A stretch of DNA of 64,000 nucleotides, from positions 248,001 through 312,000 of the forward strand of contig NZ_FQZQ01000001.1 of NCBI RefSeq assembly GCF_900142085.1, written 5' to 3'. Shown piece by piece: positions 29,939 through 46,774 of the stretch. The stretch's first letter is position 1. Each line of letters opens with the position of its first letter. A program made the position numbers and the translations under genes. The notes beneath the pieces are model-generated. The model searched no databases. It saw nothing but the letters and a program-made list of their open reading frames with translations, and was not told the origin of the DNA. This DNA comes from Shimia gijangensis. Lineage in GTDB: Bacteria > Pseudomonadota > Alphaproteobacteria > Rhodobacterales > Rhodobacteraceae.

Positions 29939-32900
29939 TCAGCCGACCAGCTTGGCCTCGTGCGCCTTTAGCGTCATGCGGGCCGCAGTATAGCTGTCCA
30001 GACCTTCGCGCTCTTTCAGCTCCGGGAACAGATCATAGATCTCGTTGCGCTGTTCAGCACCGATGCTGCCCAAAGAGTACTCACCAGGTTGGAAGCTTTC
30101 GCTCCAGGTGCCGTTGGCCAGAACGACTTCGTGGTTGTCACACAGGAAGTGGACATACTCGACGCCGCTTGTTTTGACCTGCTGCACACCGGGCATATGG
30201 GTCATATGCTTGGCTGCAATCAACACTTCGGTTTCTTCGAACAACAGCTGAGCCTGCTGGCTGACCAGAAGCATGCGGTGGTTTGGAGAGACCATCATGT
30301 CACGCTCGGGCAGATTGGATCCAAGTGAACCTTTGCGGATCATGACCGGGCGCAGTTTGGGCCGTGCAAGGAGGTCGGTGCCAGAGAGTTTCTTGTTCCC
30401 CGTCCAACGGATCGTCTGCAAACCATTGTCGCGGGTCACAACTTTGTCGCCAATTTTCAGGTTTTCCACCAACACTTCGCCCGTTGGGGTCAGAACAGTT
30501 GTCCCCGGAGTGAAACAGATGATGTTTTCGATCTGTCCAAAGGCGATCGTGCCGGCCGGGGTGCCACCTGCATCAAACAAGCTGACCGTACCGCTTTCGC
30601 TTTCGCCAGTTACAGGGTCATACGTTGGATCCAGCGGGTTGTAGTTGATGACAAAAGAGCCACCGGGTGGAATTGCGCTGGTCAAGTCCAGGGTATCGTT
30701 GTCAACACCCCCTTCGCCACCAAAAACAGTGGATCCGTTGTTGACGCCAGTAAAGGTATCTTCGTCATCACCACCGTAGGCAATGTTCAGTCCGCTGTCG
30801 CCGCCAAGATCAAGCAAATCGTTACCGCGGCCACCGATAAGGGCGTCGTTCCCGTCACCACCTTCAAGCGTGTCGTCGCCATCACCACCGTAAAGACCGT
30901 CATTTCCGGTGCCACCGACCATTGAGTCGTCGCCGTCACCGCCTTCGAGGCGATCATTGCCTTCGTTGCCGAGAAGTGTGTCGCTGCCTTCATCACCGGC
31001 CAGTTCATCATTGCCGGCGTTGCCAAATAGGAAATCGTTCCCAACTTCGCCGCGAAGAATGTCGTTGCCTTCACCGCCAGAGATGATGTCATCGCCGTCG
31101 CCGCCTAGGATTTCGTCATCTCCCAAAGCGCCGCCGATCGTGTCATTGCCGTCATAGCCGTGAACTGTATCGTTATTTGTCGTCGCTCCCGGCACGCCAT
31201 TGGCGAGAGGGTCAATGCGGTCGCCTTCGGCGTCCACGTATGAGCCGTCGATTAGGTCGTCAGCAATCGTTCCGTCGACGATTCCAACAGTCGAGCCAGT
31301 GAAATCATCTTCCAGAATTTCACTGGTCGAGGTTGCGATTACATCCGGAACGTCCGCCGCGTCTGACAGGGCTTCTGCCAAGAACTCGTCGTGGTTTGGT
31401 AAGTCTTCGACGTAGATAACGTTCTCGACATTGGTGAAGGTCGCTGTGCCAATCTCGGTCATCGTATCCAAATCAAGGAACGTGATCGTGCCGGATTCAC
31501 CCGAGGGGTCCAGCGGATCATAATCGATCAGAGCGTTGCCGCCGATGACCAACGTGTCGTAGTCATCGCCGCCTTCGCCACCGTCTATGACGTCACCAAC
31601 GCCAACTTCGGTAAAGACATCGCGGTCATCGCCACCGAACATTTCGTCCGCGCCAGCGCCACCGTCGATGATGTCTCCTCCAGAACCACCGAGGATGCTG
31701 TCGTCGCCTTCGCCGCCTACCAACAGGTCCGCTGCGCCGCCGGCTGTGTTGCCTTCGCCGGAAGTGCCATCGCCGTAGATGGTGTCATCACCTTCACCGC
31801 CAACGATAAGGTCAGTGTCGTCGCCGCCGGTCAGCTCATCGTGACCCTCTTCACCAAAGATAAAGTCAGTACCTGCGCCGCCATCGACAGTGTCGTCGCC
31901 TTCACCACCGTCAAGGATGTCCACGCCATCGTCGCCTGACACAACATCGTCGCCGCTGCCGCCGAGAACGAGGTCAGTGTCATCACCGCCATGAAGCGTG
32001 TCGTCACCTTGGCCGCCGACGACAATATCGATGCCAGTTCCGCCATCGACGCTGTCGTTGTCGACACCCGCGTCGATAAAGTCGTTGCCTGCGCCACCTG
32101 TGATGGTGTCGTTGTCGTCCTGGCCAAAGATCACATCGTTGCCAGCACCGCCGTCGATCAGGTCTTCGCCGTTGTTGGTCACAGGATCAGCCGGACCGGA
32201 CGAGCCATCATCAGGGATGTTCAGGTAATCCGGGAATGCCGGATCAAGGCCACCGTAGATGGTGTCGTCGCCTTCGCCGCCAAGGATCGTGTCAGACCCT
32301 TCGCCGCCCACAACAAGGTCATCACCCGTGCCAGCATCAACTTCGTCGGCGTCTACGCCCGCGTCAATCTCATCGTTGCCAGACCCGCCAAGAATGGTGT
32401 CCGCATCATCACCGGTCGAGATCGTATCATCGCCAGCGCCACCGTCGACAAAATCCCGGTCATTGTTCGGATCACCGTCTTGTGGAACTTCAGGGAAACC
32501 CAAATAGGATGGGAAACCAAGATCTGGAGATTGGTCCAGATCATTGCCGGTAGACGAGTCAATAATGTCGTTTCCGTCGCCACCTTCGATTGAATCCGAT
32601 CCGTCACCGCCAGAAATCGTGTCATCTCCGCCCTGGCCGTAAATGTCGTCATCACCCAGACCACCGATCAGCGAGTCCCCTGCGCCGTCGTCTGGCAGGG
32701 TTGTCAGCGTGTCAAAGAACACGTCCGTAATATTGACGTGGCTGTTGTCGCCGCCATCGTTGCTGTGTGTGATAATAATGCGCGTGACCGGGCCTGCAAT
32801 TTCAACCAAAATCGAGTTGTCATTGCCAGTGTTTGGGCCGGAATTGTTTGTCGCCGTGGCCGTATCGTCACCTGCAACACCATCTTCGTTGGACAGGATC

Positions 32901-34252
32901 AGATCAGTTCCAGCACTGGCAGTCAGCGTTACCGGGATCAGATTCCCGTCCACGCCGTAGGCCTGAATTTGCACAACCGAGTCGTGGTCAATATCGTTGA
33001 CCCGGAAATCAACATTGCTCACAGCTTCTGAGAAGTTGAGCTTGTAGCTTGCGCTCTCCTGATCGGCATCCAGTTGCGATTCCAGCGAGCTGCACGCGTT
33101 GATCGTTTCGGTGCCAGCGTCAATGCCGCTGACATTCTGAGTGTCAGATTCAAACTCGGTTTCTGCACCGTTATCAGTAAGTTGGATATAGGTGACGTAG
33201 ACTGACCCAGTGTCCTGCACAAAGGATGGATCAATGCTGTCGCCATCATTCAGAAGTGGCCCGCTGCCATCTGTCTGATCCCAATTAAAGCTTTCGCGAC
33301 CGCCAACCCCGGTGCCTTCGGCATTTCCACCATAGATGGTGTCATCGCCTGTGCCGCCGTCAACGGTATCGCTGCCGTCGCCGCCATAAATCAGGTCATT
33401 GCCGCCTTCGCCGTAGATTTCGTCGTCGCCAGCGCCACCCAAAATAGTGTCGTCGCCAGCAGACAGAAAATCGGGGTCAACCGGAGCTTCAAAAGCAATG
33501 TCCGTAACGTTAATGCCGCTGTTGTGCGACCCTTCCTGCTCATGCACGATTTCCCAGCTCACTACGGGTCCGGGAATGGTCACAAGCACGGAATGTTCGG
33601 CTGCGTCATCATCAGTGTAATCGGTGTCGATGCTGGTTGCCGTGTCGTTGCCTGCAACACCATCTGTGTTTGTCAGAGCAAGGCCCGATCCTGCATCGGA
33701 CAGCTGTACTTCTATGGCAACTCCATCGGCATCATAGGCGCGAACGGTAACCTGACCGTCGCCGTCGATGTCATTGATCCGAAATTCGACATTTTCAACG
33801 GGCGTGTCCGACTCCCAGTGGTAATGCGCTGAATTTGGGTCACCATTCAGGATGGAAGACAGCGAGGAATTGTCATCGATGGATGGGTCAAGGTCGTCTG
33901 TGTTCTGGTTTGACGTTTCGTATTCGGTTTCGACCCCAGAGCTTTGAGACAACGTTGTAAATGTGATCGATGCAGCACCGGTGTCCTGAACAAAATTCGG
34001 AGCGTTTGAGTGGTTGCCAAAGCCAGGGCCTTCTGACCATTGGAACACTTGTTGTACCGCCGGAGCCGAGCCGTGGTCACCATGAATAGTGTCATCGCCA
34101 TCCCCGGCAACGATCGAGTCGTCTCCACCAAGGCCGTACACCAAATCGCCACCGCTGGTTACGGCATCGCCGTCACCATCCGTGTAGCCAGAATCGATTA
34201 CATCGTCGTTTTCGGTGCCTTCAACCACACCAGGTCCGGTCGGATCAGCCAT
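29939..34252 (-). CDS. Giant RTX calcium-binding protein with C-terminal Hint domain
   Basis: A 1437-residue acidic protein with no Sec signal, as expected for a type I secretion substrate. Residues about 1-65 carry the first GGxGxD repeats. Two diverged copies of a 190-200-residue beta module follow (about 69-257 and 319-516, each with FVQDTG, NDIDxD and DGVAGxDTAT). A long nonapeptide block spans about 517-1180. A Hedgehog/intein-type Hint domain follows (1246-1390), starting CFTPGTTVLTPTGE with Cys1246 and including MMVSPNHRML. No C-terminal Asn of a splicing intein is evident, so cleavage rather than splicing is possible. The type I exporter genes at 59-62 kb are plausible partners by inference. 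Confidence 0.88.
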   Translation of the reverse strand: MADPTGPGVVEGTENDDVIDSGYTDGDGDAVTSGGDLVYGLGGDDSIVAGDGDDTIHGDHGSAPAVQQVFQWSEGPGFGNHSNAPNFVQDTGAASITFTTLSQSSGVETEYETSNQNTDDLDPSIDDNSSLSSILNGDPNSAHYHWESDTPVENVEFRINDIDGDGQVTVRAYDADGVAIEVQLSDAGSGLALTNTDGVAGNDTATSIDTDYTDDDAAEHSVLVTIPGPVVSWEIVHEQEGSHNSGINVTDIAFEAPVDPDFLSAGDDTILGGAGDDEIYGEGGNDLIYGGDGSDTVDGGTGDDTIYGGNAEGTGVGGRESFNWDQTDGSGPLLNDGDSIDPSFVQDTGSVYVTYIQLTDNGAETEFESDTQNVSGIDAGTETINACSSLESQLDADQESASYKLNFSEAVSNVDFRVNDIDHDSVVQIQAYGVDGNLIPVTLTASAGTDLILSNEDGVAGDDTATATNNSGPNTGNDNSILVEIAGPVTRIIITHSNDGGDNSHVNITDVFFDTLTTLPDDGAGDSLIGGLGDDDIYGQGGDDTISGGDGSDSIEGGDGNDIIDSSTGNDLDQSPDLGFPSYLGFPEVPQDGDPNNDRDFVDGGAGDDTISTGDDADTILGGSGNDEIDAGVDADEVDAGTGDDLVVGGEGSDTILGGEGDDTIYGGLDPAFPDYLNIPDDGSSGPADPVTNNGEDLIDGGAGNDVIFGQDDNDTITGGAGNDFIDAGVDNDSVDGGTGIDIVVGGQGDDTLHGGDDTDLVLGGSGDDVVSGDDGVDILDGGEGDDTVDGGAGTDFIFGEEGHDELTGGDDTDLIVGGEGDDTIYGDGTSGEGNTAGGAADLLVGGEGDDSILGGSGGDIIDGGAGADEMFGGDDRDVFTEVGVGDVIDGGEGGDDYDTLVIGGNALIDYDPLDPSGESGTITFLDLDTMTEIGTATFTNVENVIYVEDLPNHDEFLAEALSDAADVPDVIATSTSEILEDDFTGSTVGIVDGTIADDLIDGSYVDAEGDRIDPLANGVPGATTNNDTVHGYDGNDTIGGALGDDEILGGDGDDIISGGEGNDILRGEVGNDFLFGNAGNDELAGDEGSDTLLGNEGNDRLEGGDGDDSMVGGTGNDGLYGGDGDDTLEGGDGNDALIGGRGNDLLDLGGDSGLNIAYGGDDEDTFTGVNNGSTVFGGEGGVDNDTLDLTSAIPPGGSFVINYNPLDPTYDPVTGESESGTVSLFDAGGTPAGTIAFGQIENIICFTPGTTVLTPTGEVLVENLKIGDKVVTRDNGLQTIRWTGNKKLSGTDLLARPKLRPVMIRKGSLGSNLPERDMMVSPNHRMLLVSQQAQLLFEETEVLIAAKHMTHMPGVQQVKTSGVEYVHFLCDNHEVVLANGTWSESFQPGEYSLGSIGAEQRNEIYDLFPELKEREGLDSYTAARMTLKAHEAKLVG
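30713..32704 (-). repeat. RTX nonapeptide (GGxGxDxUx) repeat block
   Basis: Dozens of tandem glycine/aspartate nonapeptides such as GGDGSDSIE and GGEGDDTIY, encoded inside the RTX/Hint gene. They form calcium-binding parallel beta-roll. Two non-repeat spacers interrupt the block (around residues 940-1030). The DNA repeats are protein-coding and diverged, not CRISPR. Confidence 0.85.
32705..34048 (-). repeat. Two diverged copies of a 190-200-residue module in the RTX protein
   Basis: Copy one covers residues about 69-257 (bases 33482-34048) and copy two about 319-516 (bases 32705-33298), separated by RTX repeats. Shared landmarks in the same order are FVQDTG, an ETE(Y/F)E motif, a V(E/D)FR(I/V)NDID strand, A(Y)xxDG, LxNxDGVAGxDTAT and NVTDIAF/NITDVFF. 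Confidence 0.7.
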
Positions 34253-35960: not shown

Positions 35961-36647
35961 ATGCGAAAATTCGTAACAACCTTATTTCTTGGTGGTCTGA
36001 GCACAGCCGTACAGGCGCAGTCCACGATTGAAATGGACGAATTTGATCTTGTGCCCAATGCGTCATCGACGGTTGTTGCAACACCTTCTGTCCAGACCGG
36101 GGCCGCGTCGGAGATGGAAACCTGCCTTTTGGATCCGTCTAAATGTGCAAACTCCGAATTCAAATCCGGCACAGATTTTACAATGGACGATGTCGTGAAC
36201 CTGCAATTGGTGAAACATGACAAGACCAAGCCCGAAGACAACATAAGCGGCGAAACTGTCCCGGAGACCATGGTGTCTTCGTCACAACCTTCGACCCAGG
36301 CGCTTCCGACAATTGATATCGAAATTCTGTTTGATTCCGGATCTGATCGGTTTCGGGCGGATCAGGAAGCCAAGTTGCGCGATCTCGCTTTGGTGCTGAG
36401 TTCGGAACGGTTCAAAGGATATCGGTTCCTGTTTCTGGGTCATACAGACGCCAAAGGCGCAGAAGACTTAAATTGGACGCTTTCCCAACGGCGTGCGGAG
36501 AGCGTCGCGCAGGTTGTGCGCTTGTTCACAGGACTGTCGACTTATGAGGTCCTGGCATCAGGACTTGGTGAGACTCGTTTGAAGACGCCCAGCGATCCAC
36601 ATGCCGGGGTGAACCGCCGCGTTCAACTGGTTCTGCTGCCGCAATAG
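35961..36647 (+). CDS. Exported OmpA-family protein
   Basis: The 228-residue protein has a signal peptide (MRKFVTTLFLGGLSTAVQAQ), a low-complexity acidic, Ser/Thr-rich middle, and a C-terminal OmpA peptidoglycan-binding domain (about 112-226). The domain includes IEILFDSGSDRFRADQEAKL, FLGHTDAKGAEDLNWTLSQR and the Arg pair in GVNRRVQ. There is no N-terminal beta-barrel, so it is a periplasmic or lipid-free wall-binding protein. Its end is 3 bases from the convergent caspase-like gene. It opens the caspase/CHAT region. Confidence 0.87.
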   Translation: MRKFVTTLFLGGLSTAVQAQSTIEMDEFDLVPNASSTVVATPSVQTGAASEMETCLLDPSKCANSEFKSGTDFTMDDVVNLQLVKHDKTKPEDNISGETVPETMVSSSQPSTQALPTIDIEILFDSGSDRFRADQEAKLRDLALVLSSERFKGYRFLFLGHTDAKGAEDLNWTLSQRRAESVAQVVRLFTGLSTYEVLASGLGETRLKTPSDPHAGVNRRVQLVLLPQ

Positions 36648-36650
36648 CGC

Positions 36651-37853
36651 TTATTGAATTTCGAACTCTGAAAACCGAAACTCGGCTTCACCAAACCGCT
36701 CGGTCGTCAGAAGGCCGGAATAGGTGCCTTCATTCACCATGGTCAACGTGCTGCGCAGTGTCGCGACAATGTCTGCCTTATCTACGATTCCTTTGGGTTC
36801 GCACAGAAACCCCAACTTGTTGGTGCCGTGTGGGTCGCTTTGTTCCACCTGCAGACCGTATTCCGCACCCGGAGAAATCTCGTAACGTATTTGCCCATTG
36901 CTCAGGCTGGTGATCCGAAAAAAGCTGCGGGGAATCTGAGTGACTTTGCCTGTGGCGCCAAGATTTACAAACAATGGCTGACAGGATGGCGGCACATCGG
37001 CCACAACAGACACTTCTTCGCCTGCTGTGACCCGGGCTGGATAAACCGTCAAAAGTGTCTGCAGGGAATCGCGCCGTTTGGGCGTGCCATCCGTTTGGCG
37101 AAAGTAGAACTCTCGTTTCATCTGCGACAGCTGCTGAGGTCGTTGATCTCCGAGTGTTTCCTCAAGAACATCGTTTGTGACCCGTTTCATCAGGACCGAC
37201 ACTTCGGTGTCCGGGGTACCCATGTGACGGGCCAAAGCGCGTGCAAAAGGCGAGTTGTTTCCAGCGCCGTCTGAGGCCACCGCATTTGGCAGGGTGGCGT
37301 AGGTTATCATCATGTCGCCTTCGGGGCGCACAACTGCAAAACCACGGCGCACCGAGATATCCCGGTTTTTGCTGGTCGCGGTCTTGATCATCCGGTCGGC
37401 CCAGGGGTTGTTGCGACAGGCATCCAGAAAAATAAGACTGATGGGGACCGGCTTAACGATATCAATCAAAGTGTTCAGCGAGATTGTCTCGCGCTCAATC
37501 GCGCTTTCGCTTTTCAATTTGGCGTCGACAGGTACCAGATAGTTGATGCCGTCTTTCTGGAGCCCGTGTCCTGCGAAGTAAACCGCGATGACGTCAGTGT
37601 CGTCGTGTTGGCTTGCCAGATCATCCAAAGCGGCACCAAAGGTGTCTTCGTCTGCATCGATCAGTACTTTGGTTTCGAACCCCATCGCTTTGAAGCTTTG
37701 TTCGATCAAAACAGCATCATTCTTGGCATTCGGAAGGGTGCCTGCCGTGGCATAGTTTGAATTGCCGATCACCAGCGCAAAGCGTTTCTCGGCCAGCGCA
37801 GATGTGGTCAGGGCAAGAATTGTTAACAAAACAGTGCAAATTCGAACCAGCAT
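36651..37853 (-). CDS. Exported caspase-like (peptidase C14) protein
   Basis: The 400-residue protein has a signal peptide (MLVRICTVLLTILALTTSALA). A caspase/metacaspase p20-like domain follows (22-240): FALVIGNSNY, catalytic His96 in VYFAGHGLQ and Cys146 in IFLDACRNNP. The His/Cys dyad is intact. Residues 255-400 form a second, unnamed domain with two cysteines (PPSCQPLF and GFLCEPKG). Export means its targets would be in the periplasm. It is convergent with OmpA and divergent (130 bases) from the phosphatidyltransferase-CHAT operon. Bacterial caspase homologues are often linked to stress death or defence; the role here is unknown. Confidence 0.87.
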   Translation of the reverse strand: MLVRICTVLLTILALTTSALAEKRFALVIGNSNYATAGTLPNAKNDAVLIEQSFKAMGFETKVLIDADEDTFGAALDDLASQHDDTDVIAVYFAGHGLQKDGINYLVPVDAKLKSESAIERETISLNTLIDIVKPVPISLIFLDACRNNPWADRMIKTATSKNRDISVRRGFAVVRPEGDMMITYATLPNAVASDGAGNNSPFARALARHMGTPDTEVSVLMKRVTNDVLEETLGDQRPQQLSQMKREFYFRQTDGTPKRRDSLQTLLTVYPARVTAGEEVSVVADVPPSCQPLFVNLGATGKVTQIPRSFFRITSLSNGQIRYEISPGAEYGLQVEQSDPHGTNKLGFLCEPKGIVDKADIVATLRSTLTMVNEGTYSGLLTTERFGEAEFRFSEFEIQ

Positions 37854-37983
37854 TCAGAACCTCTTGGACGTGTCATTGATTGGGTTTGCCTGCAGCGTGC
37901 CCATTTGTAGCAGCGATGACGATCTGCTCGTGACCTCCACCGCTCTCGTGATAATAGGACAGAAAGACATTCAGGACAGCCCC

Positions 37984-38685
37984 ATGACGACTTCTCCTTC
38001 TTTTCGCGAAATCCTTAGCGATCTGCGCAATGACAAAGTGCGCAGGGAAAGGCGCACTGACTGGGCCATTGCGTATTTGTATCGCCCGCCGGGTACCGCG
38101 CTTTCATGGGTTTTCCTGCGTATGGGAATGGGGCCGGTTGCCGTATCCGTTCTGGGTTTGATTGTTTCGCTTTTTGTTCCGGCGTTTGCGTTGTGGTTGC
38201 CCGTCTGGCTGGCCGCGTGGATGGTTTGTTTTTGCGGCGTGGCTTTTCAGATTCTGGATTGTTCGGATGGAACTGTCGCCCGGATGACAGGGCGTACGTC
38301 CATTCTTGGGGCGGATTTGGACTATTTTTTTGGCATGGTGCATTACCTGTGCCTGTACCCCAGCATCGGGCTGCTGGCAGATCGCACCTTTGAAAGCGGC
38401 CTCTTGTGGACAGCGGTGGCAACCATTGCTGTCGCGGTGCGGTTTCTTGCCCGTTTGATCCGCGATCAGATTGCTCTGCGAAAAAGTCAGGGGGAAGACA
38501 CGCCTTTCAGATTAAATGATATTCCGGTTGCCTTTTTGGCCGGATTGACCGGGCTTATCCCTTTTGGCGCCTTGTCGGGTCCATATTTGGGGGCCGTGGT
38601 GGTCGCACTTTTGATCTATTCCGTTTTGGATGTGATTGACGCGTCCTTGCCGCTTCGCGATGCACCTTACAGACCAGACAGCTAA
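37984..38685 (+). CDS. CDP-alcohol phosphatidyltransferase family protein with altered active site
   Basis: The 233-residue membrane protein begins MTTSPSFREILSDLRNDKVR at ATG 37984. It has a basic cytosolic N-terminus and about six hydrophobic segments. The family motif D-x2-DG-x2-AR-x8-G-x3-D-x3-D is present as Asp92, Asp95-Gly96, Ala99-Arg100, Gly109 and Asp113, but the final catalytic Asp is Gly117 (ADLDYFFGM). Active members join an alcohol to a CDP-lipid or CDP-polyol. Loss of the fourth Asp suggests altered or lost activity. It lies 54 bases before the CHAT gene, probably in one transcript. Confidence 0.78.
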   Translation: MTTSPSFREILSDLRNDKVRRERRTDWAIAYLYRPPGTALSWVFLRMGMGPVAVSVLGLIVSLFVPAFALWLPVWLAAWMVCFCGVAFQILDCSDGTVARMTGRTSILGADLDYFFGMVHYLCLYPSIGLLADRTFESGLLWTAVATIAVAVRFLARLIRDQIALRKSQGEDTPFRLNDIPVAFLAGLTGLIPFGALSGPYLGAVVVALLIYSVLDVIDASLPLRDAPYRPDS

Positions 38686-38739
38686 CTTGCAGGTTTGAGG
38701 TCTGCGCCCTAGGCTCGTGAGAACAGGGAGGCAGGGGAT

Positions 38740-41700
38740 ATGCTGAAACGCGTTCTACAATGGGCCATCTTAGGGGTGGGTCTTCAAGTGACGTCGGGTG
38801 TTGCGCAAGAGCAGGCCGTGCCATCTGTGGTGGCAGATTGGCAAACCACGCTCAGCAATCTGGAATGTTCCGACTATCGGTTGAATGAGATCGAGCCTGA
38901 CCTGTTGTGGGCGATGGCCTCTGCTTTTTCCGGGACAAGCGTTGTGGAGCTGGCGGAAAATGCGGGTTTCAACGAACTCGAAGATTTCTTTGCCAAAAAT
39001 GGGAGCATCAATTCCTTCGACAATCGTTGGTCTTTGTTACAGCGCATTTTTGAGGCCAACCCAGCCGCGACATCACGCCTGCATGCAGAAGCACGCCAGC
39101 ATGGGGCCGCTTTGTGTCCTGCACTTTCATACGTTGCCAAGACCGGTTTGCAACAAGTGGCCCGGTTGCAGATCAACGAACGCGCCTATTGGCAGCCGTA
39201 TTCCGAATTGGCGCAGATTTTGATCAATGCCAAGAATTGCGGCTCTGTGGACGTAGACGGGTTTTTTGGGCCCGCCAGCCGGACGGCGTGGGGCACCAGC
39301 AAAGTGGGTCTGTCAGCCGCTGGTGGCACCTTGCCCACACCGGGGGATATTGCAGCACTGGCCGACAGCACGCGCGCCTGTATGCCCTTAAAAATGAACG
39401 CGTTTATGTTCGCGATGGATCGCTGTCATAGCGATGGGGGCGAGGTATCTTACCCTGAATTGCGCAAAACAGTTCAGGCCATATTGTCGGGTAACCCCGA
39501 TCACGGCATGGCGACCGTGCGGCCGGCCCTGGCATGTGTGGTGAATTCGCTGGCTTGGGCCAATGCGCCTGCGGTCGACGGGATCGGAATGTTCGCCGAT
39601 GTTGTGGAGAGCATTCCCATGGCAGAGAGCGGCTGGAAAGCTGCTCAGGATCACACGCAGGCGGTGCTGGGTGTACTGACCAACGAGGACGGTCAGTCGT
39701 TGGCTGACGCAGTTGGCGCAGAGTTGATTTCGCGGCACGGGAAGGGCGATCTGGGCCTTGTCGGTCTTGCCCTGCTGGCAAATGAACCCGGAGGTATCCG
39801 CGCAAAGACACTGGAACTTGTTCTGCAAGCGGGGTTTGCACAATCTGATGCCCGACCGGTTGTAGAGCAGCTGATTAAAACTGAGCTTGGCCAGTTGAAC
39901 AATGTTTTGACAGGCGCGGCCTACGGTGCTGAAACGCGGACATTTGCAGATGGCACGTTGACGTTGGATTCCTCCCTTACGATGGATCAAACGGCGCATG
40001 TGATGGGATTTATCACCGCAATTGATACGGTGCCTATGATCCAAAACCGCTTGTTGAACAGCCCTTTCGATCAAATGAATTACGCCTACGCGACCTTCGT
40101 GCTGGAAGGGTTTACGCCCGGTGGCCGCCGCCCGGACCTTGCGTTCGCGCATTTCAAGGTGGCAGCAGATCGTGGTCATGCCCCGTCGCTGTTTCGTCAG
40201 GCTTTGATGACCGAGCACGGGTTGGGCACATCCGCCGATCCTGATGCAGCGATCGCCTTGTATGGCCGGGCCGCTGCAAAAAAAGAAAGTGCGGCAGCGC
40301 TGGCCTTGGCGCAGCGGTATGAGACAGGACAGGGCGTTTCGGCAGATTGGGAACGGGCAGCAAACTATTACGATACGGCTTTGAACAATATGCGACCCGC
40401 AACAGCGGCGGTGATGGTGCATGGGCAGATGGCGGCGCAGACCGGATTTTGGGATGACCGCGCACCCGGAGGTGAGCTGTTGGCCAAATGGGCCTATAGC
40501 GCCATGCGCGAATTGGCTGTTGGGGATGATGGTGAGCCAGATTGGCAAGAGAGTTTCGCACGCTACCGCGCCCGACGTTTTGCGGTTGCTTTAGGACATC
40601 AGTTCAGCGACGCTGAAAGCGGACTGATACTGGATATGCATCGCGCAGCTCAATGGTTGCGGGTGGCTGAAGGTATGGGCTTTTACTGGGATCCGGGCCG
40701 CAGTTATGCGGGCGACGACATTGATTACGACCCAGATGGGTCCGAACGGTTGCAGCGGTTGGTGTCGATGCGTCCCGATCTTGCGGCCCATCCGTTGGAG
40801 ACTTTCGCGGCACAAGACCCGGATTCGCCTGAAGGTGTCTGGGCTGCCACGCGGGACGTATCAAAAACCCAAGCCAAAGTGCACGAGGTTTGTGCTCAAA
40901 CGGAAGAGTATCAATATAGTGATTGCCTGACGTATCTGCATCGCGCTGCGATTGGCGGTGTGGCACCAGAGCTGGTGGCCAGCGCCTTTGAAATCCTGAT
41001 GCAGGGATCCGACAAAGAGCTGGACGAGATCCGACAGTTCGGACGTTTGCGCCCCGATGAAAGCAAGCAATTGAATGGTTTGGGATGGGACTATAACCGC
41101 GAACCAGAGCACACGGCGCGGTTGGTGGATGTGTTGGCCTTTTTTGGCGACTACAAAGGGGCCGAAGCCCGCGCCCGGCTTGCAAAAACAGCCGCCTTGG
41201 ACAAATCCATCGGACCGCTTCGCCGGCAGGTGGCCCGGGCCAGAAATCTGGGGCAAGAAAACACCGAATTGGAAAGCCTTTTGAGCGTTCTGGCGCGCAA
41301 TGGAGACACTTCTGCGCGTGATTTGCTTGAAAGCTACCGTGCTCCGCCGAGACAGGCTGAACCACCTGATCTAGGGGTCGCAAGGGCGCAGTTCGCGGCG
41401 GTTGAGCATTTGCCAAATTCGCGGGCCATTGCCAATACGGCGCGGCGTTTGGCCCGTGCCGAGGCTGCAAGTGGCGACGTCCCACGCGCGATCGAGCTTG
41501 AATTGATCGCGATGAAGTCCGACATGGGGCGCCATCAGGCATCTGCCTTGTCAGATGGACGGATGGCGGCAAAGCTGGCCGAAGTTTGCACATTGTCGCG
41601 ATCTTCTGAACGGCTGTTTGGTTATGGTGCGCGCGCCATTGCGATGACCTTTGCCAAACAGGCCGTGAACACGCTTCAGGACATGCGTCGGGATATTTCT

Positions 41701-43320
41701 TCACTGCCAGAGCATGTGCAATTGTGTTTCCGTGCGCAGGTTGAAAGCCACTATCGCTGGCTTGCCGACTTGTTTATCGCGGAAAACCGACCTGACGAAG
41801 CTTCGCGCGTTTTGGAAATGCTCAAAAGCTTTGAAAGTTTTGAGTTTGCCAATCGGGCCAAGGGGCTGACGGGTGAAAGCTATGACAAGCTGCCGATGAT
41901 GGGTCAGGAAACCAAGCTGATCGAGGCTGTCGAGCGCGTAAAGCCTGCCCAAAACGCTTTGTCGGTTCGTCGAATTGCTTTGATGCGTCTGGCCAATTCG
42001 CGCGACTTGTCAGCCCAGGAACAACAAGAGTTGGAGGGGCTGAATAACACATTGGCCGTGGCTGCAGAACAACGAGAAGAAATTCGGGTTGCTTTGGTTG
42101 AGGCCGCCGAGGCGGTCGGGAGAGCCGATGCAAATACCCGCCTGAACCCGGGGAAATCGATCAAACGTTATCTGCGCAAGGGGCGTGATGATGTCGCGGC
42201 CATCCTGCAATATGTGATTTTGCCGGACCGGATGGGGTTGGTGATGACCACGGCCAGTCATCAACGGGTCTGGGGATGGGATACGCTTGAGGGAGAACCG
42301 TTTGACGAGGCCCGTTTGAATAGCCTGATCGCAGATTTTCGCGATCAGTTGCGCACCCCTGCCAGTGATCCGCGCGATCTTGCCCGGCGCCTGAATGACG
42401 TGCTTTTGCCTGCCGAAGTGCGTGCGGAACTGAAGGCTGCCAAAGCGGAAACCCTGATCCTGTCACTGGATCGACAGCTTCGGTATCTGCCGGTGGCGGC
42501 GTTGCACGATGGTGAAAACTGGCTGGCGGCGCAATTCACCCTGACCCACGTCAACCGGGCTGGATTGACGGCCAGCACCGAAGAACACAGCACAACCGTT
42601 GCGGCCTTTGGCGTCACGCAAGCCCATCAGGGGTTTGATCCCCTGCCTGCCGTGGCTGATGAAGTGAACCTGTTGGTTTCAGAAGGTGGTGGCGACAAGG
42701 GCATCCTGTCTGGCAGTGCCCGCTTAGACAGCGCATTTACCCGAGATACATTTGTAAACTCTCTGATCTTTTCGGACGAGATTGAGGATCGTATGGGTAT
42801 TGTGCATCTGGCGTCGCATTTCAAATTTGGCACCACCGAGGCCAACAGTTTCCTGTTGCTTGGCAATGGGGGACGTCTGAGTGTGCAGGAAATTCGCGAA
42901 GGCCTTGGGCAAGATGCCGATCTGTCCGAAGTGGCGTTGCTGACCCTGTCGGCCTGCGAAACTGCCTTTGGGGACACCGATGCTGATGGGCGTGAGCTTG
43001 AGAGTTTTGCCGCCATTGCGCAGCATCAGGGCGCGCGGGCTGTAATGGCGTCGCTTTGGCCGGTTGCCGACAGTTCGACTGCCGCCCTGATGGTGGCGTT
43101 TTATCAACGCTACAACGCAGGCTTGCCGGTTGCTGAGGCTTTGCGGGGGGCTCAGATTGCTTTGATGACAAATGACCCAGAAGCGCAAGGTAGCAGCCGT
43201 CGCACCTTTAACCTAGGTGAGGGAGAGGCCGCGGAAACGATGCCCGAATTGCCCGCGATGGATGGTTGGGAACATCCGTTTTACTGGGCTCCGTTTATTC
43301 TGTTGGAGGGAAGCGTATGA
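38740..43320 (+). CDS. Exported 1526-residue CHAT-domain protein with wall-binding and Sel1-type repeats
   Basis: The protein has a signal peptide (about 1-22). A short peptidoglycan-binding-like motif follows (VDVDGFFGPASRTAW, about 171-185), then Sel1/TPR-type helical repeats (clear at about 466-545) and further helical repeats to about 1070. A predicted coiled section spans about 1080-1135 and a C-terminal CHAT domain about 1238-1526. CHAT is a caspase-fold (clan CD) peptidase domain; His1360 in VHLASHFKFG and Cys1406 in TLSACETAFG form the expected dyad. The frame is intact for 4.6 kb. It overlaps the following small gene by 4 bases (ATGA). Substrate and role are unknown; the domain order implies a repeat sensor regulating a C-terminal protease. 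Confidence 0.85.
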   Translation: MLKRVLQWAILGVGLQVTSGVAQEQAVPSVVADWQTTLSNLECSDYRLNEIEPDLLWAMASAFSGTSVVELAENAGFNELEDFFAKNGSINSFDNRWSLLQRIFEANPAATSRLHAEARQHGAALCPALSYVAKTGLQQVARLQINERAYWQPYSELAQILINAKNCGSVDVDGFFGPASRTAWGTSKVGLSAAGGTLPTPGDIAALADSTRACMPLKMNAFMFAMDRCHSDGGEVSYPELRKTVQAILSGNPDHGMATVRPALACVVNSLAWANAPAVDGIGMFADVVESIPMAESGWKAAQDHTQAVLGVLTNEDGQSLADAVGAELISRHGKGDLGLVGLALLANEPGGIRAKTLELVLQAGFAQSDARPVVEQLIKTELGQLNNVLTGAAYGAETRTFADGTLTLDSSLTMDQTAHVMGFITAIDTVPMIQNRLLNSPFDQMNYAYATFVLEGFTPGGRRPDLAFAHFKVAADRGHAPSLFRQALMTEHGLGTSADPDAAIALYGRAAAKKESAAALALAQRYETGQGVSADWERAANYYDTALNNMRPATAAVMVHGQMAAQTGFWDDRAPGGELLAKWAYSAMRELAVGDDGEPDWQESFARYRARRFAVALGHQFSDAESGLILDMHRAAQWLRVAEGMGFYWDPGRSYAGDDIDYDPDGSERLQRLVSMRPDLAAHPLETFAAQDPDSPEGVWAATRDVSKTQAKVHEVCAQTEEYQYSDCLTYLHRAAIGGVAPELVASAFEILMQGSDKELDEIRQFGRLRPDESKQLNGLGWDYNREPEHTARLVDVLAFFGDYKGAEARARLAKTAALDKSIGPLRRQVARARNLGQENTELESLLSVLARNGDTSARDLLESYRAPPRQAEPPDLGVARAQFAAVEHLPNSRAIANTARRLARAEAASGDVPRAIELELIAMKSDMGRHQASALSDGRMAAKLAEVCTLSRSSERLFGYGARAIAMTFAKQAVNTLQDMRRDISSLPEHVQLCFRAQVESHYRWLADLFIAENRPDEASRVLEMLKSFESFEFANRAKGLTGESYDKLPMMGQETKLIEAVERVKPAQNALSVRRIALMRLANSRDLSAQEQQELEGLNNTLAVAAEQREEIRVALVEAAEAVGRADANTRLNPGKSIKRYLRKGRDDVAAILQYVILPDRMGLVMTTASHQRVWGWDTLEGEPFDEARLNSLIADFRDQLRTPASDPRDLARRLNDVLLPAEVRAELKAAKAETLILSLDRQLRYLPVAALHDGENWLAAQFTLTHVNRAGLTASTEEHSTTVAAFGVTQAHQGFDPLPAVADEVNLLVSEGGGDKGILSGSARLDSAFTRDTFVNSLIFSDEIEDRMGIVHLASHFKFGTTEANSFLLLGNGGRLSVQEIREGLGQDADLSEVALLTLSACETAFGDTDADGRELESFAAIAQHQGARAVMASLWPVADSSTAALMVAFYQRYNAGLPVAEALRGAQIALMTNDPEAQGSSRRTFNLGEGEAAETMPELPAMDGWEHPFYWAPFILLEGSV

Positions 43321-43970
43321 GACTGTCTGTTTTTGCAATCGCTCTGGTATCTGCAGGGGCAGCGCAGGCTGAAATTGAAGACTGCTATGCGCTTGAGTCA
43401 CCGCAAGACAAGATTGGCGAAATGGTTGTGACCTCAGACGGAGATATGACCTACACCCAGAAAGGACAGCCCAATATCCTGTATTTCAGCGGCTGTGGCG
43501 TGGCCGAAAATGATGTTGTGAAATGCTCGATCGAATGTGATGGCGGCAACATGTCTTACACGCACAGCGTCGAGGGAATCGAAGTCGATGCCAGTGGATT
43601 TCGCATTGAAACCATGCAGTTTGACAGCATCCTGAATGGGGCTGGACGTGACGGCGCTGATGGAGAGGTTCTTTATGGCGTGTTCCTGTTAAAACCAGCG
43701 CCGGTTGAGATGTGCCGAAAGGTGAACGCGCGTATGCCGGATATCATTTTGCAGGCTGGAGACGTTCATCCATTTGTCGCGGGCCTGGAACGCAACCTTC
43801 TTGCTGGTGGCTATTTTGTGGGTGGGGCGGATACGGTGTTTGATACACGCACCACCGATGCCGTGAAGGCTTATCAGGCTGATGTTGGACTAGAACAGAC
43901 AGGTCACGCGGATCGCGCGCTGATGCGTCGATTGGGCGTCGATACGATGCTGGCGTTTGGCGGGTGCTGA
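43317..43970 (+). CDS. Small exported protein with C-terminal peptidoglycan-binding-like domain
   Basis: ATG 43317 overlaps the CHAT gene stop, so the two are translationally coupled; a longer frame lies inside CHAT. The 217-residue protein has a signal peptide (MRLSVFAIALVSAGAAQA). A central part carries several cysteines (in DCYALE, SGCGVAEND, CSIECDGG). A C-terminal peptidoglycan-binding-1-like stretch covers about 160-205 (VFDTRTTDAVKAYQADVGL then ADRALMRRLG). Coupling strongly suggests it works with the CHAT protein, perhaps as anchor or inhibitor, which is inference. Confidence 0.8.
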   Translation: MRLSVFAIALVSAGAAQAEIEDCYALESPQDKIGEMVVTSDGDMTYTQKGQPNILYFSGCGVAENDVVKCSIECDGGNMSYTHSVEGIEVDASGFRIETMQFDSILNGAGRDGADGEVLYGVFLLKPAPVEMCRKVNARMPDIILQAGDVHPFVAGLERNLLAGGYFVGGADTVFDTRTTDAVKAYQADVGLEQTGHADRALMRRLGVDTMLAFGGC

Positions 43971-46288: not shown

Positions 46289-46774
46289 TCAGGGAACGAG
46301 ACCAGTCTCTTTCAGGAGGCCGCGTTTCTTGGCCTCGTAATAATAGCCGCGGGCATACCACTGAACGGCGGTGTCATAATCGCCGTCTGAGACCATCCAT
46401 GCGCCGCGCAGGTATTTCACTGCGTATTTGAGGTTGGTTTCCGCATCCAGCAAATCCATGGGCTGACCGGTGAAGCCCATAGATCGCGCCGTGGCGGGAA
46501 GGATTTGCATCAGCCCATAATAGGGTCGGTTGATGGCATGGGGCCTGTGGGTGCTTTCGCGTATGATAACCTTGTGAACCAAAGGGCGTGGCACCTCGTA
46601 AAGGTCAGCATATTGGTTGATGAGCACGCGGAGTTCGGGGGTCTCATTGGGATAGAGTGGTGGTTCCGGTGGCTGTTGTGCATCACTTTTCCCTCCCGAA
46701 CAGGCGGCAATAAAGGTCAGGGGGATCAGGCACATCACTGTGCGGCGGGTCATATCGTACATTGGTTTGATCAC
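46289..46774 (-). CDS. Lytic transglycosylase (SLT) lipoprotein
   Basis: The 161-residue protein has a lipoprotein signal ending LTFIAAC, then a small SLT/goose-lysozyme-type catalytic domain. The domain has the catalytic Glu in VIIRESTHRPHAI, PYYGLMQILPATARSMGF and a TPR-like ending LKYAVKYLRGAW. It would cleave peptidoglycan glycan strands from the outer membrane. The start is uncertain: GTG 46774, ATG 46762 and ATG 46753 all precede the signal sequence and none has a strong ribosome site. Downstream of it is a short gap to the response-regulator remnant. Confidence 0.87.
   Translation of the reverse strand: MIKPMYDMTRRTVMCLIPLTFIAACSGGKSDAQQPPEPPLYPNETPELRVLINQYADLYEVPRPLVHKVIIRESTHRPHAINRPYYGLMQILPATARSMGFTGQPMDLLDAETNLKYAVKYLRGAWMVSDGDYDTAVQWYARGYYYEAKKRGLLKETGLVP

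Follow-up and report, generated by a model that had tools for sequence, protein, structure and literature searches.

Bacterial relatives of caspases have been treated mainly as enzymes of cell death or defence that act in the cytosol. In the available portion of a 2012 survey (Asplund-Samuelsson 2012, PMC3501461), prokaryotic metacaspases are described with N-terminal helices, possibly signal peptides, a peptidoglycan-binding domain appears in 11 sequences, and OmpA is listed in 14 of 217 metacaspase operons. Two further accounts, likewise available in part, concern alphaproteobacterial pseudo-orthocaspases with an N-terminal trypsin domain plus DUF4384, reported in 2019 (PMC6426788), and the iSTAND/VMAP ternary conflict systems, which are NTPase/vWA-based and feature peptidase exchange and OmpA modules (PMC7159879). 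Here we analyzed a 64,000-nucleotide stretch of the Shimia gijangensis genome (GCF_900142085.1, contig NZ_FQZQ01000001.1, positions 248,001 to 312,000; hereafter the window), where the gene of a caspase-type protease (orthocaspase) adjoins that of an OmpA-family protein (unit 1), and a CDP-alcohol phosphatidyltransferase homologue separates this pair from a long CHAT protein and its partner with a C-terminal PG_binding_1 domain (unit 2). The gene order is dam, OmpA and caspase, the CDP-alcohol gene, CHAT and partner, and a phosphodiesterase gene. An earlier note had presented these five open reading frames (ORFs) as a single system without a described counterpart; all five lie where it placed them, with catalytic residues intact. 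Envelope-located bacterial caspases have been in print since 2012 (PMC3501461, going by the portion available); in the open-access literature we found no description of the OmpA and caspase pair, of the protease swap or of the ClpP-like link reported below.

The window's caspase has the p20-type domain with a His-Cys dyad of peptidase family C14 and the orthocaspases. As in the metacaspase survey, so far as its available text goes, a caspase domain with His and Cys is combined with a possible signal peptide and with OmpA in the operon; unlike that account, the present case involves a specific pair, a shared C-terminal domain, a trypsin swap and co-inheritance with ClpP-like proteins (PMC3501461). 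The pseudo-orthocaspases also combine trypsin and caspase domains in related bacteria, but in the accessible part of that report both domains sit in one protein with an altered caspase site, whereas here one replaces the other, the sites are intact, and the C-terminal domain does not match DUF4384 (PMC6426788). With iSTAND/VMAP, as partly available, the locus shares interchangeable caspase or trypsin domains and OmpA and Sel1 as wall-associated modules (PMC7159879), while no MoxR NTPase or vWA was found among the 19 window proteins scanned with Pfam between 27.9 and 53.8 kb, which are not every ORF of that interval.

The OmpA and caspase genes form a conserved, inherited two-gene unit. The caspase ends in a domain of its own (about 140 residues; the C-domain) that was found in 11 of 394 genomes of the family, representing 11 genera: G000 (the window's genome), G026, G044, G154, G171, G172, G265, G375, G391, G401 and G454. 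The 394-genome sets of the CHAT, C-domain and OmpA searches are taken as one set, since the same genome labels recur in them, and C-domain absence in 14 same-genus genomes (G001-G003, G005-G015) was read from a single-sequence search. Near-full-length OmpA partners (13 matches, none weaker than E 8e-60) occur in exactly the same 11 genomes, the next match being at 3.7e-37 (Fisher's test for co-occurrence, 1.3e-21, kinship ignored), and the two genes are separated by 3-452 bp in ten of them and by 2,196 bp in G265. At a threshold of 1e-22, any match to the window's OmpA protein extends to 80 of 394 genomes including the 11, mostly through the OmpA domain alone.

Adjacency was also followed in 16 named C-domain loci, which overlap with these genomes (L055 is G172, L069 is G171, L070 is G375) and add Roseibium and Rhizobium to the genera with a C-domain caspase. 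Six of the 16 fall below 20 kb in length, including five below 10 kb, so absent neighbors there mean little. An OmpA gene lies within 500 bp of the C-domain caspase in 11 loci and within 5 kb in 13, and none was seen in the available sequence of three (L064, L065 and L067). Among caspases of named loci that lack the C-domain, only 4 of 63 have OmpA within 500 bp, and we rejected OmpA adjacency as a general trait of exported caspases. It is not unique to the C-domain subfamily either: several caspases of other subfamilies adjoin OmpA, among relatives chosen because the caspase and OmpA matches lay near each other. In L154, L155, L157 and L160, such caspase genes overlap OmpA by a few bases, a second kind of OmpA-caspase pairing within the same selection. 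Separately, in two loci (L058:5660-9718, L059:5645-8706) unit 1 is flanked on its other side by a caspase-like gene, weakly matched by the profile, and by a gene related to it; in L058 an OmpA gene adjoins these two.

No Pfam family was found for the C-domain. Assignment to DUF4384 was rejected (0 of 9 members match; a single stray DUF7686 hit at 0.092), as was kinship with the OmpA partner, to which no resemblance was found. With PADLOC, the caspase drew nothing beyond a weak generic caspase model, and the OmpA domain matched ZorB (MotB) weakly.

Upstream of this constant C-domain, the catalytic domain is exchanged: it is a caspase in 6 of the 11 genomes and trypsin-like in the other five (G026, G044, G391, G401 and G454), which carry the His and GNSGSP motifs and of which two scanned members match Trypsin_2 at 1.1e-19 and 2.6e-20. 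Catalytic motifs are present in all 11 proteases; the caspase His96/Cys146 pair named in the earlier note is conserved without exception across the 28 relatives aligned. A single caspase/trypsin change suffices on the OmpA partner tree, where the split has moderate support (90/90) and G044 forms one long branch. Because C-domain and OmpA partner both outlast the protease swap, the C-domain probably docks the protease onto its partner. In the PDB, the caspase profile matches MALT1 best, and Asp46 and Asp144, invariant among aligned relatives, align with MALT1 Asp residues that we take to form the P1-Arg pocket; all five trypsin-like members carry an Asp six residues ahead of the catalytic Ser, presumably the trypsin position by its usual numbering. 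These Asp residues may reflect an Arg/Lys preference of the unit 1 protease.

The genomes with unit 1 also hold many copies of an exported-looking ClpP-like family with SPGG-like, CxSAC and G-F-H motifs and, in some members, SH3, peptidoglycan-binding or PAN tails. Clp protease itself is matched weakly by 2 of 10 of these proteins (best 0.0023). At E 1e-10, the 11 genomes have 4, 9, 3, 11, 13, 6, 9, 8, 15, 7 and 19 matches, in the order listed above, compared with 0-2 in 62 genomes (24 with at least one) and 0-2 in 80 genomes (29 with at least one) without the C-domain; these are matches, not always whole genes, from a model of 10 rows from 9 unit-1 loci. In the named loci, 13 of the 16 C-domain caspases have a ClpP-like gene no more than 1.5 kb away, compared with none of the 63 other caspases, using a model seeded with five sequences from four unit-1 loci; without the four seed loci the count is 9 of 12. 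At L069 the neighborhood match is a weaker, 408-residue relative, and a stronger one of 629 residues lies about 2.4 kb away at the same locus in G171. An alignment of 52 members took in those at 1e-40 or better, minus the split gene L219 and all loci from genomes that lack the C-domain; in it, the His, both Cys and the Ser of CxSxC are each retained by 98-100% of the members. The window's genome has its four matches at three places elsewhere, one of them split over two frames; this gene (L219, G000:C71:220500-224500), in two adjacent frames, looks like a pseudogene or an assembly break.

On this basis we tentatively favor, at somewhat short of an even chance, two independent envelope protease modules around the CDP-alcohol gene, the first tethered by OmpA and acting on ClpP-like clients. 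Module 1 would be an exported protease with an interchangeable catalytic domain, caspase or trypsin-like, and a constant C-domain that probably docks it onto the dedicated OmpA-family protein, whose C-terminus would bind peptidoglycan and so tether the protease to the wall. There, with its predicted Arg/Lys preference, it would most likely cut exported proteins. We infer the ClpP-like proteins to be clients because they are co-inherited with unit 1, and those with SH3, peptidoglycan-binding or PAN tails, expanded in module-1 genomes, would be the best candidates. Module 2 would follow the same design, a periplasmic CHAT cysteine protease that its peptidoglycan-binding partner anchors to the wall, and the arrangement may be controlled by envelope damage. 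A more specific version, periplasmic caspase-type control in which a wall-tethered protease with an exchangeable catalytic domain but a constant docking domain and OmpA tether toggles exported, wall-binding ClpP-like hydrolases scattered over the genome and the CHAT pair is a similar plug-in, seems to us unlikely.

Several observations weigh against a client relation. Seeding beside unit 1 may have somewhat inflated the ClpP-like contrast in favor of that subfamily, although the difference is still large; a ClpP-like gene lies in the fetched locus of only 5 of 11 unit-1 genomes, and none lies within the 64-kb window. The 52 members share no conserved cleavage site except one Arg, near the catalytic His and kept in 96% of them, which may be structural. 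Central proteases with dispersed targets are familiar from exosortase/PEP-CTERM and rhombosortase, and here too one protease locus is co-inherited with many scattered exported proteins; unlike those targets, the ClpP-like proteins listed vary at their C-terminal ends, and inspection by eye revealed no sorting signal shared among them. The expansion might also be mere lifestyle co-inheritance, with module 1 an ordinary envelope quality-control protease lacking dedicated clients. Correlation is not interaction, and the ClpP-like genes are dispersed and bring domains of their own, but genome size offers no explanation (a 6.8-Mb genome has 1 match, a 5.6-Mb genome 0) and the close linkage at most named loci also counts against this view; we regard this alternative as rather unlikely, if still a serious contender.

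A different role for the OmpA protein is suggested by its N-terminus, where 16 aligned partners (14 caspase-linked, 2 trypsin-linked) share the consensus QSxxTLDxFDL, CLxxxxxC and DDVVNLGIVD. Strict pairing and this conserved segment would suit an immunity-like protease inhibitor that places the segment in the active site, as part of a toxin-antitoxin-like or cell-death module. The same partner family, however, serves caspase and trypsin-like sites alike, which C-domain docking fits better, and none of the fully or almost fully conserved columns of the segment is an Arg or Lys; we consider inhibition doubtful. Tethering agrees with the other end of the protein: Asp163 and Arg178, which we take to be the Asp and Arg of the peptidoglycan-binding motif, are invariant in 16 of 16 partners, consistent with assignment to the OmpA C-terminal family by domain and wall motif.

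The proposal of exported proteases with wall-binding partners, made in the earlier note, is supported, at the level of sequence, by N-terminal features and by the OmpA and PG_binding_1 domains, from which wall binding of both partners is predicted. Export was judged from N-terminal features only, using a crude hydropathy and A-x-A test (hydropathy cut-off 1.6), which was passed by 27 of 28 caspases, 4 of 5 CHAT proteins, 4 of 5 CHAT partners and 14 of 16 OmpA partners. Of the four such proteins encoded in the window itself, CHAT (1.54) and OmpA (1.46) score slightly below the cut-off. The proteins of both units are probably exported.

The CHAT gene and its partner are a second, rare conserved unit. 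Full-length CHAT proteins occur in 3 of 394 genomes, the window's, G145 and G395, with the peptidoglycan-binding partner directly behind in all three; in the window the partner's ATG at 43317 overlaps the CHAT stop as ATGA. A large protein search, in which the best 8000 candidates were scored, gave four further full-length relatives (44-70% identity), making a five-member family with the window's protein, in which the CHAT domain with its His and Cys is retained and the His1360/Cys1406 pair named in the earlier note is invariant (5 of 5); a single-sequence search of genome contigs gave no close relatives. The Sel1 match of the CHAT protein is slightly under the Pfam cut-off. We also considered a peptidoglycan-binding domain within the CHAT N-terminus, where a motif recognized by eye, VDGFFGPASRTAW, is mostly invariant across the five members, and rejected it because neither a Pfam scan of that piece nor an hhalign comparison with the partner gave a match. 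Shorter TPR-CHAT proteins are present in 6 of 394 genomes (including G395, which also has the long form) and in two same-genus genomes; of the eight looked at, all carry the His and Cys motifs and six have a signal-like N-terminus as judged by eye. As in Craspase TPR-CHAT and the gasdermin-linked proteases, to the extent that their descriptions were available, a CHAT cysteine protease is fused to repeats; unlike these, the window's CHAT protein is apparently exported and has a peptidoglycan-binding partner. Around the CHAT pair in G145 (L142, L210) lie an MscS channel, a DUF900 hydrolase, a 764-residue caspase and a 1554-residue WD40 protein, the last of which follows the caspase and has a weak caspase-like end.

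Between the two units, the CDP-alcohol transferase gene is an inherited bystander that belongs to neither. Its start is probably ATG 37984 rather than TTG 37762, and the protein scores 21.2 bits in Pfam, just under the 22-bit cut-off. Its motif ends in Gly in the window and in G005 and in Asp in 5 of 6 compared orthologues, which possibly alters activity. Five same-genus genomes (G001, G005, G006, G020 and G022) have dam and the CDP-alcohol gene side by side, and neither OmpA, caspase, CHAT nor partner was matched in their fetched dam-CDP loci; murA then follows in four of them and the phosphodiesterase gene adjoins the CDP-alcohol gene in one. The 8-kb Shimia litoralis contig (L055) carries dam, OmpA, caspase, CDP-alcohol gene, porin and murA, without CHAT. 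From these gene orders we infer that each pair was gained or lost independently of the other, next to a gene that was inherited.

The single five-gene system of the earlier note is accordingly not supported, while the neighbor analysis it called for shows each pair to be real and conserved. A common envelope-damage cascade of caspase, CHAT, OmpA and peptidoglycan-binding partner would draw on the adjacency of all these genes in the window, on metagenomic homologues of CHAT (70%), caspase (80% over the C-terminal part) and partner (69%), each on three contigs with a longest of 28,413, which from these shared statistics are probably on one contig, and on an exported caspase of a different subfamily 1.8 kb downstream of CHAT and partner in G145. 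Outside the window, and that caspase aside, caspase and CHAT were never neighbors in the genomes examined, the outcome that the earlier note had named as counting against its reading: no CHAT profile match was found at any of the 16 named C-domain loci (six of them short), G145 and G395 are not among the 11 genomes with C-domain or OmpA partner, and in G395 no caspase was matched in the 19 kb around CHAT, its nine caspase matches lying on other contigs. With the pairs on opposite sides of the inherited gene and only one of them on the Shimia litoralis contig, we hold one cascade to be improbable. Chance arrangement holds for the complete set of five, since the CDP-alcohol gene is a bystander, but conservation excludes it for both pairs, leaving it next to no likelihood.

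Table 1. Features of the two units and the intervening gene, in window coordinates.
Feature	Position	Strand	Basis
OmpA-family partner, unit 1	35961..36647	+	Pfam OmpA 8.1e-14; N-terminus export-like
OmpA partner N-terminal conserved segment, residues about 20-95	36018..36245	+	alignment of 16 partners
Protease of caspase type (orthocaspase) ending in the C-domain, unit 1	36651..37853	-	Peptidase_C14 4e-37; N-terminus export-like
Caspase C-terminal domain, residues 258-400	36654..37082	-	common to trypsin-type proteases adjoining the same kind of OmpA
Caspase catalytic His96 codon	37566..37568	-	GHG motif; alignment
Caspase catalytic Cys146 codon	37416..37418	-	DACRNN motif; alignment
CDP-alcohol phosphatidyltransferase homologue, bystander	37984..38685	+	adjoins dam in 5/5 sister genomes
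Long CHAT protein with Sel1-like stretch, unit 2	38740..43320	+	CHAT residues 1213-1521, 3.7e-52; N-terminus export-like
CHAT catalytic His1360 codon	42817..42819	+	invariant in 5/5
CHAT catalytic Cys1406 codon	42955..42957	+	invariant in 5/5
CHAT partner, C-terminal PG_binding_1 domain, unit 2	43317..43970	+	PG_binding_1 3.5e-11; N-terminus export-like

Elsewhere in the window, a large protein with 19 stretches of RTX calcium-binding repeats and a Hint_2 domain is encoded at 29939-34252 on the reverse strand, and similar ORFs lie beyond dam in all five sister loci. A small reverse-strand ORF at 46289-46774, 2.3 kb past the CHAT partner, reads as a lipoprotein lytic transglycosylase (AACSGG, then RESTHRPHAINRPYYGLMQILPAT; named by eye).

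Co-inheritance of unit 1 with the ClpP-like family hints at an undescribed bacterial envelope protease system. A conserved envelope unit with a putative tether, caspase-trypsin exchange and an accompanying ClpP-like family would give one group of exported orthocaspases concrete partners and candidate substrates.

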